From positions 62,001 through 126,000 of the forward strand of contig JAVEDP010000018.1 in assembly GCA_030841085.1 (NCBI GenBank): a stretch of DNA of 64,000 nt, given 5' to 3'. Source of the DNA: Pyrinomonadaceae bacterium. Its GTDB lineage: Bacteria > Acidobacteriota > Blastocatellia > Pyrinomonadales > Pyrinomonadaceae. This document shows, piece by piece, positions 2,827 to 17,363 of this stretch. The position numbers were made by a program, and so were the translations under genes. Below the pieces are notes generated by a model. It was not told the origin of the DNA and searched no databases. It was given only the letters and a program-made list of their open reading frames with translations. The stretch's first letter is position 1. Every line of letters starts with the position of its first letter.

Positions 2827-3472
2827 GGTGGGATTCCTTTATTTGTCAGTACCGGCAACCATCGGGTTATGAGAGCCCAAATGGCAATGACTAATCTGGA
2901 AAAGGACTAAGTCTGAACAAAGTATACCAGAAGCGTCTGTTACTGCATAAAGGATCTATCTCGAGGTCGATCTCCCTTCGATTTCCATCAATGCCTACCT
3001 AAATAGCGGCGTGCCGCTGCATACACAGGTTTGAAGGATTAGCCTTTCCGTCGGTTTTCCAACCCCATGTCACTCCGTGCAACCAAGTAGTAAAGCCCGT
3101 GAGGATTATGAGGCTGCTGACAACAACTCTATGCTTCGAACTCTATGTTAAGCAATGACATTTCTCCCGCCGATATACCAACACGGGTTCCTTCTACATA
3201 TGAGAAGGGTAATGTTGTGTGACAAGTGTGTGCCAACAGGTCGCCGTCTCTGAAACTCGTTGCTTTCTAATAAACCTACACCTCACTAATCACACTGAAA
3301 CTGCCACGAGTAAAACCAAAATCATTAATCGGCTTGACTGGCAACACACGGGCATGCCCGCAATGCTGCCACAAGAAAAACTGATAGTTAAGCACTTAGC
3401 TCCTTGAAGATTGCCAACAGAATTCCAATTGTGATCAGGTATTAAAAGAGTGGTGCTTGTAGATATTGAGAT
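2827..3472. other. Gene-poor region upstream of the tRNA fragment
   Basis: Apart from the short coding remnant at 3219-3407, this stretch shows no supported gene. It begins the disturbed region that carries the tRNA fragment and the TIR locus. Confidence 0.4.
3219..3407 (+). pseudogene. Short coding remnant, twin of the one at 8.4 kb
   Basis: A 62-residue open frame ending LDWQHTGMPAMLPQEKLIVK plus a few residues. A diverged copy at 8372-8510 keeps the peptide PAMLPQEKL-VK while changing third codon positions (CTG/TTG, CCA/CCG, CAA/CAG, GTT/GTG). That pattern indicates both descend from a translated sequence. Family unknown. It may be the tail of a lost gene rather than a complete small protein. 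Confidence 0.4.
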
Positions 3473-3526: not shown

Positions 3527-3907
3527 GGGCCTATCGGGCTGAAGCGAAGAAAAAAAGGCTAGAGGCATGACGGTTGGTAAAGTAATGACGCTGTGGGGCG
3601 AGTATGCCGACCTACCGCGCAGATTTGAGATAGCCTGTTTGAAAAACACGCGTCGCGTCTGGATCAGGGCTTGCCATGCCGGACCGAAACGTCTACTTTT
3701 CAATGGGGGTTACCGCCACCGATCGATGAGGGCACGGTCGCCGTCGACGATTTTGCAAATCCCAGGCGGCTTCACTCCGCGCGCGATATTGACTGCCCGT
3801 CGAGTCGGAAGCTTCGCATGCACAAGCAGGAACTTTCGTAACCTGATGTCTCATGTAGGGGTGCTCTGTATTCATTCTATCCTTAACGCAGTTGCCAGAA
3901 CGGAATT
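3527..3907. other. Intergenic region between tRNA fragment and membrane protein gene
   Basis: Small overlapping frames (3567-3911 plus; 3521-3703 and 3693-3875 minus) lack ribosome sites and recognisable motifs. I see no supported gene. Confidence 0.35.
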
Positions 3908-4942
3908 ATGACGGCGCGTTTTCACAACAGGGATATTAATGTTCCGCAGGAGGTCGCTGCGCAATTCTCTCAATTGTCCAGGTTACTCGACAATCCAGAA
4001 ATTAGTAAGGAATTTGCAATTCCTGAGGCCCAGGCAAAAAGATCGAAGATTTTTTTTAATACGCTTGGCATATTGTCACTCACTTTTATCATTCTGTTGT
4101 TATTAATTGCGACGTGGCGTTTCTATTTGTACAGAGTCGGCGTCGAACCTCCTCTTTCTCTTTTATGGATTAGTGGCGCGTTGGGTGTGGCTGCTTTTGC
4201 AATGGCGTTGTCATCACATTTTCTATTTGGTTTTCAGGATAAGTGGCTTCACAACCGCTTTACGACGGAAAGACTTAGACAATGGAAGTTCCAGCAGTTA
4301 CTGGATGGAGAATTTCTCACGCTATCTCAAACAGACCAGCCTGAATTTGACAAACAACTTAATGCCCGCTTCGTGAAAGCAAGATTTATCCTGCAGAAGC
4401 CAGGAGCCGTAAATGATTTTCTCAATGCTGAAGACTTCCACCTATTTGTGAAACCCTCTATCTCTTCAGATAGACAATTGGCCAAACAGATCTTTGAAGC
4501 GTATCAACATTTCCGGCTGGATTATCAGGCTGCCTATTTCAGCTTCAAACTAGAGAGATTACGGACCATAGATGTCTGGACAACCAGCATCGCAAAATTT
4601 TCACTCATGCTAGCCGGGCTCCTCGCACTTGGCGAAGTCATTCTCCTACTTGGCGACGCTGGCCGGCGGGAATCCAATCTAAGTTGGCTTGTGGGAGCTT
4701 TAGCTTTATCAGCCGCTTTGATTAGCGCTGCCATCAGGGTCGTTCGTAGCGCGAAAGCCATCTCCGAAGAGACTGAAACTTATGCCAGCAAATGGATTTC
4801 GCTTAAAATCCTGGCAGATAGTTTTCAATCGTTGACAAGCCACAACAAGAAGCTGGAATGCATGATCGAAACAGAAAGAATTTGCGTTGACGAGCTTCGT
4901 GCCTTCATCCGCACCTTTAGCAAGTCCGATTATCTACTGTGA
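3908..4942 (+). CDS. Four-helix membrane protein, SLATT-like in layout
   Basis: 344 residues. Two hydrophobic hairpins are seen, at about 49-69 plus 84-108 and about 231-251 plus 259-278. Each is followed by a charged helical segment (NRFTTERLRQWKFQQLL; ETYASKWISLKILADSF). This duplicated helix-pair plus amphipathic-helix layout resembles SLATT/DUF4231-type membrane effectors of bacterial immune systems, but that rests on topology, not clear sequence identity. It converges on the TIR-receptor gene with only 71 bp between stops, and sits next to the tRNA fragment. Composition is more AT-rich than the housekeeping genes, consistent with acquisition. Confidence 0.6.
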   Translation: MTARFHNRDINVPQEVAAQFSQLSRLLDNPEISKEFAIPEAQAKRSKIFFNTLGILSLTFIILLLLIATWRFYLYRVGVEPPLSLLWISGALGVAAFAMALSSHFLFGFQDKWLHNRFTTERLRQWKFQQLLDGEFLTLSQTDQPEFDKQLNARFVKARFILQKPGAVNDFLNAEDFHLFVKPSISSDRQLAKQIFEAYQHFRLDYQAAYFSFKLERLRTIDVWTTSIAKFSLMLAGLLALGEVILLLGDAGRRESNLSWLVGALALSAALISAAIRVVRSAKAISEETETYASKWISLKILADSFQSLTSHNKKLECMIETERICVDELRAFIRTFSKSDYLL

Positions 4943-5013: not shown

Positions 5014-8004
5014 TTAATTGCCAAGCGGCTTTAATGGGACGGTGACACATTCTCTAATAAACGAAGGTCCATTGAATATTAAGCCGGAAAAGACCTCAAC
5101 TACATCGGCCCCGGCATTTAGAAATTCCAGCACGTGATACGGGTCTGTAATCCCTCCGCAACCTATGATCAGGACATCTTTTCCGACCAACTGTCGCAGG
5201 ATTGAGACGGTATTAATTGCCTTTTCCCTAAGCGGCTCCCCGGAAATCAGGCCCGGAGAGTTCCTTTCTTCGGAGGGCGGCACTAAACTCTTAGAAAAAT
5301 GAGCTGAAGAGCCGGTCGCCACAAACCCGTCACAGGCATCGCGCTGCAGCAGGGGCTCGATGAATGTCTTCAGGGTAGCGACAGACCAGGCTACGCCACT
5401 CGCATCTTCAGGCGTGAGCTTCAGCAAAACGGGTTTTCTAGCTTCGCCACTCAGTTTGTGCGCCTGTTGTTTCAAAGGAAGAAGAATGTCCCCGGCGATT
5501 TGTTCGCTGTCTAATAGATTCAAGGTGTCCGAGATTGCATTCGGGTTGAGGGTGACTACAAAAAAATCCACGTAGTTGATCAATTGTCTAATGAGATACA
5601 ACAACTCGCTGTGAACGTAGGTTGCGCATCTACGCGAATCATCACCCGCGTACTTATCGAGATGGTCCGGGTGAGGTCCGATGTTACAGCCGATTAAAAG
5701 CCCTTTGCGTTCGGTCTCAGGGAAAGCTTTGAGCCTCTTCTTCACTTCCTCAACGCCATCGCTGGCAAACGCTTTACGATGCCAGATAGCTTTCCGGTCA
5801 CGTAAGTGCGTAATCCTGGCCTGGTCTCCCGCCCCCTTCCACGGGTCATCGAAAACGATCCCGATTTCTATGAAGCCGATGCCCAGGCTTTCCAGGCCAA
5901 CCAGGGATTCCGCATTTTTCGAGAAGCCGGCGGCAATGCCGATGCGATTGCGAAAACTGAGACCGCAGTGCTTTTCAACCTCAGCTCTAACTACTTCATC
6001 GCTGCGATAAAAGCGCGCGAAACGGAGAAGATGCAAGGCTGCTCTTTGGGCCAGCTTAGGTGGTATGCGTTGAATTAGGGGCCAGAGCTTCTGATAAAGG
6101 GTCATGCGAAAGACCCAATACCAGATTTGAAAAAAAAAGCCCCGCGCACGGAAAGTCCTGGCGAGTCGCTCCCTAAGCTCTTTAGCCATCGCGTGAGGCA
6201 GTTCCGGCGGTAAGATAATGTCCGCCTCGCCCGCAAACACCATCTCCCGGGCCGTTTCCAACTCAGTCGCGTTCAAGCCGAAGTACAGCGGAATGATTTT
6301 CGTGCAGGCTTGCCCTTTGGCAATGCCTACTTCCTTCTTACAATATTTGGAGTTGAGAAAGTCCTTAGTCACTATTCCGACAAAAGTTCTACACCTATTG
6401 AGTTCTTCCTCGATTTGCGCGTCAGTTTTCTCTCCCGGCCTATAGCTCAGCGAATAGAGATACGTCTCAAACCCCAACCGGCCGAGAATAAGTCGCACTT
6501 TCAGCGCCAAACGCAAATCCTCAGGATTCTGTTCGGTGTAAGAGATAAAGCAGCCTCCCAACTTTCGTTGGTAGTGATATTTCAAGATGAATAGAAAGAG
6601 AAGGGCCGCTAGTAGCAAGGCAAGGATGATTGACGGGATGGAAATTATTCGAAGGCTGTTCCAAAAGCTCAATCGCTCGTCGGTCAAGGGAAGATTTGCT
6701 ATCTGGTCAAGCCCTCTTTTATTCGGGTTGACGTAGGTTAATTCGAACGCCCGATTATCTGGGCGTCTTGCCTCCCCCGTTTCACTATCGAAGCCGGAAA
6801 AATAGCTGATGCCGATCTCGAAAGCACCCTTTCTAAAGTAATCGCGTAGCGCTGAGCGCAGAGCCGAAATTCTTTTCGGCTTAAATAGCTCGGGCTTTTC
6901 CAAATAAACTGTCTTTATGCCCTGAAGAGCTACAACCATAGCGTCGATGGATTTAGCAAGATGGTAGTCATATTCGAGCACATCCTTGGAATAGTCCGGA
7001 TGGTCAAGCTGCCATTCCCGGAACGCGTCGGCACGATTGCGCCGCTCTACAACCGCGAGGTCGCCTGATAAGACAAGCACATACGCTGCCCTCTCGTCGC
7101 TCGTGAAAGCTGAGATATCCAGGCCTGACCCACCAAAAAGATAAAGCCACTGGTTCTTGCGCAATTCGAAACGATTCTTTATTGAGCCTAAGTGAGAATT
7201 GACGTAATCAGATATCGGCAACTCGTCAATATGAAGTCCCAGCAGACCTATCGCATCGACACGCGGCCAACCTCGACGCTTATACTCCTTCTCCAGGTTT
7301 GACAGCAGCCGAACCACATCCTCAGAGCTCAAGTTCCGGTGGTAAGGTATGGCTATCGGTTCATCCGAACCCCCGAGCCCCTTCCAGGCATTCAAGAAAT
7401 CAACCTTCATTCCGTGACCGAACGTGTCCTCATCGCCCTCCTTACCGCTGAAGAACTTGTTGGATGACTCGTAGAATAGCGCGACATATTTTACCGCCCT
7501 CTCTTCTCTGAGTTTCTCCGCTAGAATCTTCATCTGGATGGAATCGGGAGTTGAAATGCGAAAAAGCCAGGGATCGCCTCGTTCCCAGGCGGTGACTGCA
7601 GTGGCGGTACTAATCGGGCAGAGAACGGGAGTCTTATTCGCGGCTGCTACCTGTCCAATTTTGATTGAACAAGAGCTATTCACCGACCCAATAATGAGCG
7701 CCGCATTCTTGTTTATTTGCTCAGCAGCCAAGCGGCTGGCTATTTCTGGATTGCTGTTATCGCTCCCAAAGATTAATGAGACTTCGAGGCCTGGGGGGAG
7801 ATCTACAAAATCTTTCTTACGAGCATTAACAAACTCAATCGCTCGCCGCTGTATAACTCCCGGTCTATATTGACCGACTACCGTGGTGTCGTAAGGACAA
7901 ATAACCCCCACTCTTACTTGGTCTGCGGATTTGATCTCTTGTGCAAGCGTATTCTGGCTTACCAGCAGAACCGCAAATACGATCGTGAGGAATCCCGGTC
8001 TCAT
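5014..8004 (-). CDS. Fusion: periplasmic type-1 binding domain - TM - TIR - dihydroorotate-dehydrogenase-like
   Basis: About 996 residues from ATG at 8004; numbering below is from an in-frame TTG at 8037 (1007 aa). Residues 12-33 are a signal peptide. Residues 40-450 match the amino-acid-receptor type-1 periplasmic binding fold (RVGVICPYDTT, IIGSVNSSCS, VLCPISTATAVTA). Residues 463-487 form one membrane helix. Residues 493-600 are a TIR domain (GGCFISYTEQNPEDL, CKKEVGIAKGQ with Glu569 as candidate NADase residue). Residues 640-1000 resemble class 2 dihydroorotate dehydrogenase: IAAGFSKNAE, VLLKLTPED, ISGEPL, IIGCGGI, FSGLIFNGP. FMN-phosphate motifs are kept, while orotate-contact positions of PyrD look replaced (NPNAIS for SSPNTPG; ATGSS for ATNTT). 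Inferred role: an envelope sensor with cytoplasmic NAD-related output. The frame is unbroken across all joints. Confidence 0.8.
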   Translation of the reverse strand: MRPGFLTIVFAVLLVSQNTLAQEIKSADQVRVGVICPYDTTVVGQYRPGVIQRRAIEFVNARKKDFVDLPPGLEVSLIFGSDNSNPEIASRLAAEQINKNAALIIGSVNSSCSIKIGQVAAANKTPVLCPISTATAVTAWERGDPWLFRISTPDSIQMKILAEKLREERAVKYVALFYESSNKFFSGKEGDEDTFGHGMKVDFLNAWKGLGGSDEPIAIPYHRNLSSEDVVRLLSNLEKEYKRRGWPRVDAIGLLGLHIDELPISDYVNSHLGSIKNRFELRKNQWLYLFGGSGLDISAFTSDERAAYVLVLSGDLAVVERRNRADAFREWQLDHPDYSKDVLEYDYHLAKSIDAMVVALQGIKTVYLEKPELFKPKRISALRSALRDYFRKGAFEIGISYFSGFDSETGEARRPDNRAFELTYVNPNKRGLDQIANLPLTDERLSFWNSLRIISIPSIILALLLAALLFLFILKYHYQRKLGGCFISYTEQNPEDLRLALKVRLILGRLGFETYLYSLSYRPGEKTDAQIEEELNRCRTFVGIVTKDFLNSKYCKKEVGIAKGQACTKIIPLYFGLNATELETAREMVFAGEADIILPPELPHAMAKELRERLARTFRARGFFFQIWYWVFRMTLYQKLWPLIQRIPPKLAQRAALHLLRFARFYRSDEVVRAEVEKHCGLSFRNRIGIAAGFSKNAESLVGLESLGIGFIEIGIVFDDPWKGAGDQARITHLRDRKAIWHRKAFASDGVEEVKKRLKAFPETERKGLLIGCNIGPHPDHLDKYAGDDSRRCATYVHSELLYLIRQLINYVDFFVVTLNPNAISDTLNLLDSEQIAGDILLPLKQQAHKLSGEARKPVLLKLTPEDASGVAWSVATLKTFIEPLLQRDACDGFVATGSSAHFSKSLVPPSEERNSPGLISGEPLREKAINTVSILRQLVGKDVLIIGCGGITDPYHVLEFLNAGADVVEVFSGLIFNGPSFIRECVTVPLKPLGN

Positions 8005-8076
8005 AAAAGGATTGGAGCAAATCCTGGTGCAGCCCAATTGAGTTAGCTTTCCCGCGGTTCAACGCATGCGGTGTGA

Positions 8077-8371: not shown

Positions 8372-8510
8372 ACTGGGTGTGCCAATTGTAACTGTTACCA
8401 ATGAACCCCATTGGTTTCTAATAAACTAAACTTCATCAGCTTAACTGGCGGCATAAGTAAACGCCCGCCATGTTGCCGCAGGAAAAATTGCTGGTGAAGG
8501 GCTGACCAAT
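8372..8510 (+). pseudogene. Second copy of the short coding remnant
   Basis: Aligns with 3229-3400: shared TGTGACAA-TG-GTGTGCCAA, TTTCTAATAAAC, and a coding core reading PAMLPQEKLLVK. Here the frame is broken by TAA before the core and TGA after it. It lies on the far side of the TIR-receptor locus from its twin. Confidence 0.4.
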
Positions 8511-16828: not shown

Positions 16829-16859
16829 TAGCGCCGGTATGATCGTTTGGGCAAAGCCG

Positions 16860-17363
16860 TTACTGCTTCGGTTTCGCAGCCTTCTGATTCGCGTTGTTGT
16901 TGGTCGTGTTCGCGGCGACGGTCAGCATATTCTTAACACCCGTCACGCCTTCCACGGCTTTGGCTACGGTTTCAGCTTTAGCCTTTTGTGCCGCGCTTGC
17001 GACCGAGCCGGTCAGCGTCACGACTGCGTTTGAAACGTCGACGTTGATGGTCGAGTCACGCAGATCGTCCGCGGCTGCCAAATCAAACCGAGTCTTGGTC
17101 CACAGCCAACCATCGTTGAGGCCAGTGCCAATGGTGCGGCCCGCGCCTTTCGCTTCCTTCGCATACTTCTCTTTGTTCGTTTCATAGTCCTGGCGGGTTA
17201 ACCCGCGATTCGTGTTTGTGTTTACGTTCGTATTTACATTTGCCACCGTGTTGGTGTTGGCATAAACGCGCGTGTTTGCGTTGTCGTTGGCGGTTTGATT
17301 GCATCCGGTAAACAAGCCGATGAGTGCGGTTGCAACTATGAATCCGAGAAACTTGTATCTCAT
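16860..17363 (-). CDS. BON-domain lipoprotein with Asn/Thr-rich spacer
   Basis: 167 residues. Lipoprotein signal (VATALIGLFTGC), then an Asn/Thr/Val-rich low-complexity spacer (about 22-55), then a BON domain: STINVDVSNAVVTLTGSV and AVEGVTGVKNMLTV. BON domains bind membranes or partner surface proteins; this one is likely anchored in the outer membrane or periplasm and helps envelope stability. A strong AGGAGG sits upstream of the start. The Asn-rich spacer resembles the one in the protein at 40644-41111. Confidence 0.85.
   Translation of the reverse strand: MRYKFLGFIVATALIGLFTGCNQTANDNANTRVYANTNTVANVNTNVNTNTNRGLTRQDYETNKEKYAKEAKGAGRTIGTGLNDGWLWTKTRFDLAAADDLRDSTINVDVSNAVVTLTGSVASAAQKAKAETVAKAVEGVTGVKNMLTVAANTTNNNANQKAAKPKQ

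Follow-up and report, generated by a model that had tools for sequence, protein, structure and literature searches.

A one-chain TIR receptor with a periplasmic-binding domain and a dihydroorotate dehydrogenase-like barrel in a Pyrinomonadaceae genome

A single minus-strand gene in the window (the whole 64,000-nucleotide stretch of Pyrinomonadaceae DNA analysed here) encodes a receptor in which a type I periplasmic-binding (PBP1) domain, one transmembrane (TM) helix, a TIR domain and a dihydroorotate dehydrogenase (DHODH)-like barrel follow one another on one chain, an architecture that is solid and is known from one genome. Together with an adjacent gene for a SLATT-like membrane protein, the receptor gene forms a 5-kb two-gene unit between direct repeats, within a 14.3-kb insertion, and we tentatively read the pair as an accessory, horizontally gained TIR conflict or defence module, the mechanism of which we infer below. 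The observations behind this reading are the architecture, the residue pattern, the gene pairing, the repeats and the empty site, all from a single copy of the arrangement.

Results

The receptor frame runs uninterrupted for 1007 codons, counted from the TTG at 8037, to a stop at 5014-5016, with the ATG at 8004 as its probable start (996 amino acids); residues are numbered throughout with the TTG at 8037 as residue 1 (Table 1). Hydropathy revealed one strong membrane helix (residues ~467-485) and a hydrophobic N terminus compatible with a signal peptide, and KYHYQRK directly after the helix conforms to the positive-inside pattern. The initial annotation had described one unbroken frame with a signal peptide, an amino-acid-type periplasmic domain, one membrane helix, a TIR domain with a candidate catalytic Glu and a PyrD-like barrel; each of these elements, as well as the order of domains and the topology, was recovered with Pfam and NCBIfam profiles, hydropathy, alignment or predicted structure. 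That annotation gave neither the strand nor the start codon, and it did not mention the SLATT-like neighbour, the repeats around the pair or the empty site in a relative.

Table 1 Features of the receptor gene, its neighbour and the surrounding repeats (window positions unless another sequence is named).
Feature	Position	Strand	Basis
Full receptor open frame	5014..8037	-	ORF list, Pfam, NCBIfam
Predicted signal peptide MRPGFLTIVFAVLLVSQNTLAQ, residues 12-33	7939..8004	-	hydropathy and sequence
Type I periplasmic-binding domain (LivJ/LivK-like), residues about 34-455	6673..7938	-	Pfam, AlphaFold, Foldseek, alignments
Transmembrane helix IPSIILALLLAALLFLFIL, residues 467-485	6583..6639	-	hydropathy
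TIR_2 domain, residues 497-589	6271..6549	-	profile matches
Candidate catalytic Glu569 (SKYCKKEV)	6331..6333	-	motif and alignment
Class-2 DHODH-like barrel including N-terminal helical extension, residues 647-998	5044..6099	-	NCBIfam, alignment, AlphaFold, Foldseek
LNPNA where PyrD has the ISSPNT catalytic-serine motif	5536..5550	-	alignment with PyrD
TGSSA where PyrD has the TNTT orotate-binding motif	5302..5316	-	alignment with PyrD
Tandem SLATT-like protein, 344 aa, two TM-helix pairs	3908..4942	+	NCBIfam SLATT_1 and hydropathy
Direct-repeat copy, left edge of two-gene unit, small-gene 3' end ...HKGMPAMLPQEKL	3338..3407	+	repeat comparison
Direct-repeat copy, right edge of two-gene unit	8445..8498	+	repeat comparison
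Further direct repeat, left copy	3251..3275	+	84% with 8402-8426; at both unit edges only
Further direct repeat, right copy	8402..8426	+	84% with 3251-3275; at both unit edges only
Other repeat copies (L101:13291-13418 and 16839-16969)	C41:56291, 59839		repeat comparison
Empty site in the relative (L109)	L109:5823-5953		single repeat copy

The outer domain matched Peripla_BP_6 (Pfam) at 1.2e-7, just above the curated cut-off, and matched 3td9 at E 2e-42 with a profile made up mostly of relatives. Its AlphaFold model resembled LivK and the mGluR ectodomains in Foldseek comparisons and had the two-lobe PBP1 fold, with the C-terminal lobe modelled at low confidence.

We assign the TIR domain because of its TIR_2 profile score (Pfam, 3.1e-10; 41 bits, well above the cut-off of 28) and its SKYCKKEV motif, in which CKKEV (residues 566-570) fits the catalytic Glu position of the pattern S-W/Y-C-x-x-E. 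In a PDB alignment the Glu of CKKEV fell opposite that of 'WPQKE' in the Paracoccus TIR 3h16, a pairwise match that is weak (E 0.5). PADLOC gave only weak ThsB-like TIR matches for the receptor, and the closest relatives within the phylum, from a search with the TIR part alone, were too weakly similar to be informative. Three other TIR_2 genes occur in the same genome (L001, L002 and L004), and that of L004 (C24:27954-28199) lies ~11 kb from the genome's own pyrD.

The SLATT-like gene ends 71 bases from the receptor stop, and the two genes are convergent rather than arranged as an operon. Its product matched SLATT_1 (NCBIfam) over two stretches (5.7e-9), at 36 bits and hence below the curated cut-off of 41, and hydropathy placed TM pairs at residues 46-109 and 223-282, such that the SLATT arrangement, a pair of TM helices ahead of a helical region, occurs twice. 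Pairwise comparison of the two halves detected no similarity, Pfam and NCBIfam gave no SLOG, SIR2 or macro-domain match in the protein, and the gene was not found in 59 relatives, the same set that lacks the receptor fusion. A small plus-strand open frame (3567-3911), the composition of which looks non-coding, overlaps the SLATT-like start codon by ATGA and, if real, would be translationally coupled to that gene.

The insertion is delimited by a same-genus relative (G005, locus L109) that has the same flanking genes and from which C41:56418-70717 (14.3 kb) is missing. Flank DNA is roughly 66-79% identical between the two over long matches, the contig is collinear on both sides of the insertion, and the downstream genes common to both genomes are a GT2, an oxidoreductase, a phosphodiesterase and a tricorn-like gene. 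Four direct repeat copies split the 14.3-kb stretch of the host into three inserted segments, against a single copy in the relative; each repeat consists of the 3'-terminal part of a small Cys/His gene, ending ...CWQHKGMPAMLPQEKL. Such a layout is typical of integration at a gene's 3' end and marks an insertion hot spot. Copies were found at this locus only, and the repeat was accordingly rejected as a genome-wide element. Since the two-gene unit sits exactly between copies 3 and 4, its genes are tied as one gained unit; no recombinase and no other defence genes were recognised beside it.

Sporadic presence and a repeat-flanked insertion are more in line with accessory conflict genes than with core signalling, and they count, as does the SLATT-like neighbour, against a rather unlikely alternative in which the receptor would serve nutrient or amino-acid signalling and not defence, with the PBP1 domain sensing a metabolite, the TIR domain acting as a scaffold or NAD-level regulator and the barrel reading metabolic state. 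Speaking for this alternative are the amino-acid-binding type of the sensor, the descent of the barrel from a metabolic enzyme and the weakness of the ThsB-like matches in PADLOC.

The barrel is complete and carries the N-terminal helical extension of quinone-dependent DHODHs, as expected for class 2. It matched DHO_dh (Pfam) at 4.9e-25, well above the curated cut-off, and the class-2 (quinone-dependent) DHODH model NF003652 (NCBIfam) at 5.3e-52 across residues 651-997, under every equivalog cut-off; its predicted model had a pLDDT mostly of 85-95, and its top Foldseek matches were class-2 DHODHs, human, rat and E. coli among them (E ~1e-21, TM by target ~0.8). Residues were compared with those of E. 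coli PyrD and of eight ordinary family pyrD, with roles (flavin, substrate or catalytic) assigned as in established PyrD structures; an additional row, L009, was read on the wrong strand and explains the single deviating letter in most columns. Kept at the flavin site (E. coli PyrD numbering) are A62, G63, K66, N139, K217, T245, S267, G268, G296 and G297, including the phosphate-loop GG, with two changes (T86 to I and Y318 to F). Substrate contacts are altered at N111 (to H), N172 (to T), N246 (to G) and T247 (to S), the orotate Asn N177 is N or A depending on the alignment, and overall the barrel has lost at least three of the Asn that bind orotate; the catalytic serine S175 is absent (N or P, again alignment-dependent), SSPNT having become LNPNA. 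From this pattern the barrel probably binds flavin, and because the catalytic-serine motif and orotate-binding Asn are lost with flavin contacts mostly retained, it probably does not oxidise dihydroorotate and is probably not a working DHODH. The first reading of the barrel as a PyrD that binds dihydroorotate is not supported.

Retention of the FMN contacts and of the N-terminal quinone-tunnel helices, in a barrel predicted at high confidence, would also suit an active flavoenzyme that has switched to another substrate, carrying out small-molecule redox chemistry with membrane quinone, in which the TIR domain controls the barrel or the barrel the TIR domain. We consider this unlikely, given that the catalytic Ser and several substrate Asn are lost with no obvious replacement base and that T86 has become I in the flavin pocket.

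An ordinary pyrD with intact catalytic and orotate-binding motifs is present elsewhere in the genome (C24:39192-40217), and the housekeeping DHODH role is therefore covered. The receptor barrel is only 29% identical to this gene product, and in a tree its very long branch falls outside every ordinary pyrD that was sampled; it is thus neither a misassembled pyrD copy nor the result of the host's pyrD having recently been fused to a receptor. Relative to class-2 PyrD, then, the receptor shares the entire barrel, the N-terminal helices and flavin-site residues, whereas it lacks the catalytic Ser motif and orotate Asn, is fused to a TIR receptor, scores below equivalog cut-offs and occurs in a host with a pyrD of its own. 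The tree joined the receptor barrel weakly to a DHODH-like plus TM family (L025, L026), a grouping that long branches make unsafe. In that separate family, from the same bacterial family (L026:2906-4825, minus strand; L025:1242-3128; L119), the barrel is fused to a multi-helix membrane part and is strongly degenerate, with K66 and the catalytic motif lost; the membrane part stands alone in other genomes.

A decaying or accidental fusion with no selected function (unrelated genes joined recently, or a chimera of assembly) would agree with the single instance across every collection searched and is very unlikely in the face of 1007 codons without a stop, a third-position G+C that stays even (0.52-0.62 in blocks 101-1000) and does not shift where TIR and DHODH meet, conservation of structural and flavin motifs in an otherwise divergent barrel, and collinearity of the contig with the relative on each side of the insertion; an assembly chimera at the receptor locus is itself unlikely.

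Searches of genomes from the family (119), the class (162) and the phylum (396), the one phylum sampled at whole-genome depth, found no other copy of the fusion, at thresholds that excluded ordinary pyrD and with which a distant fusion could be missed. The fusion was also not found in a search of 59 relatives that did list ordinary pyrD, in which the only long frames were those of the DHODH-like plus TM family. Long DHODH-matching frames at L025 and L026 were rejected as further fusions as members of that family, and those at L058 and L060 as ordinary pyrD preceded by a fortuitous open frame. No further fusion emerged with the N-terminal part alone or the TIR part alone as query, nor in plasmids, phages, genome contigs (full protein query) or viral contigs, and genome contigs searched with a PBP1 alignment yielded only PBP1-ATPase receptors. 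The arrangement is new and so far unique, in keeping with the initial annotation, which knew of no described system with this order of domains: within a literature search that had preprints and most subscription journals outside its scope, we found no such system and no publication on a fused TIR domain and dihydroorotate dehydrogenase or on DHODH-like fusions in bacteria.

Discussion

As a conflict or defence module, our tentatively preferred reading, the pair might work as follows. The periplasmic PBP1 domain would bind a small ligand, probably an amino-acid-like one, and its closure or dimerisation, transmitted through the single helix, would bring TIR domains together; these would cleave NAD+, leading to depletion and/or an ADP-ribose-type signal; and the NAD product or the loss of NAD would open the SLATT-like membrane protein as a pore, by which the cell may be harmed or arrested. 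The flavin barrel, having probably lost dihydroorotate chemistry, would most likely act as a second sensor or as a lock on the TIR domain, responding to flavin, quinone or redox state, which is the simplest view of a barrel that lies next to the membrane and keeps its quinone-tunnel helices. A bolder and, in our estimate, improbable version would be a dual-key receptor, Toll-like in layout, with a former metabolic enzyme as its guard domain. In it an outside ligand and an inside flavin/quinone or pyrimidine-pathway signal, the latter read by the repurposed DHODH barrel, would jointly gate a TIR NADase, and the product of this enzyme would open the partner pore. Known anti-phage TIR systems mostly sense inside the cell, and sensing of an outside ligand is unusual among them. 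This weighs against the conflict-module reading, as do the single copy of the arrangement, the convergent genes, the SLATT_1 score below its cut-off and the absence of recognisable defence genes or a recombinase nearby.

We tentatively class the receptor and SLATT-like pair as a variant of TIR conflict systems, and as neither Thoeris (there is no ThsA) nor a DHODH enzyme (catalytic residues are lost). Several GAP1-N1 conflict systems pair a nucleotide-related effector, such as TIR, with a separate 2TM SLATT gene, the product of which is predicted to be a nucleotide-responsive pore (PMC7159879); the present locus resembles these systems in setting a TIR effector alongside a SLATT-type gene and differs from them in that no GTPase/GAP1 component was recognised, in its PBP1 receptor architecture and in the tandem, four-helix form of the SLATT-like protein. 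Thoeris uses TIR proteins with a TM-macro effector (PMC11204291), and here too a candidate TIR enzyme, with weak matches to ThsB-type profiles, adjoins a possible membrane effector. However, the TIR domain here is part of a membrane receptor with an outside sensor and an extra DHODH-like barrel, the genes are convergent, and the neighbour is SLATT-like rather than an adjacent ThsA (SIR2-SLOG or TM-macro). Animal Toll-like receptors likewise combine an outer sensor, one helix and a cytoplasmic TIR domain, with an LRR sensor where this receptor has PBP1, an analogy of layout alone that implies no descent.

Immunity has one of its shared roots in TIR systems. A one-chain PBP1-TM-TIR receptor, if our reading is true, would be a bacterial counterpart in layout to Toll-like receptors, and its rewired DHODH would, to our knowledge, be without precedent as a pyrimidine-synthesis fold with a regulatory role in a TIR system.

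The joining of PBP1-TM to a cytoplasmic signalling module is recurrent in the phylum, in the form of PBP1-TM-ATPase. These Acidobacteriota receptors (L049-L053 and L067-L071) are the nearest kin of the outer domain, at about 26-28% identity, and their outer domain, homologous to that of the TIR receptor, has the same NSSC and TAT motifs; they also share the single helix and the presence of a cytoplasmic module. That module is an AAA/STAND-like ATPase instead of TIR-DHODH, and a second ATPase gene lies downstream. In all three of the loci read (L068:6803-11087, L070:2816-8798 and L071:6218-11208), the PBP1-TM-AAA ATPase receptor was followed immediately by a second AAA ATPase-like gene (~630-660 aa), and this conserved pair looks like an undescribed membrane-receptor ATPase system of the Acidobacteriota.
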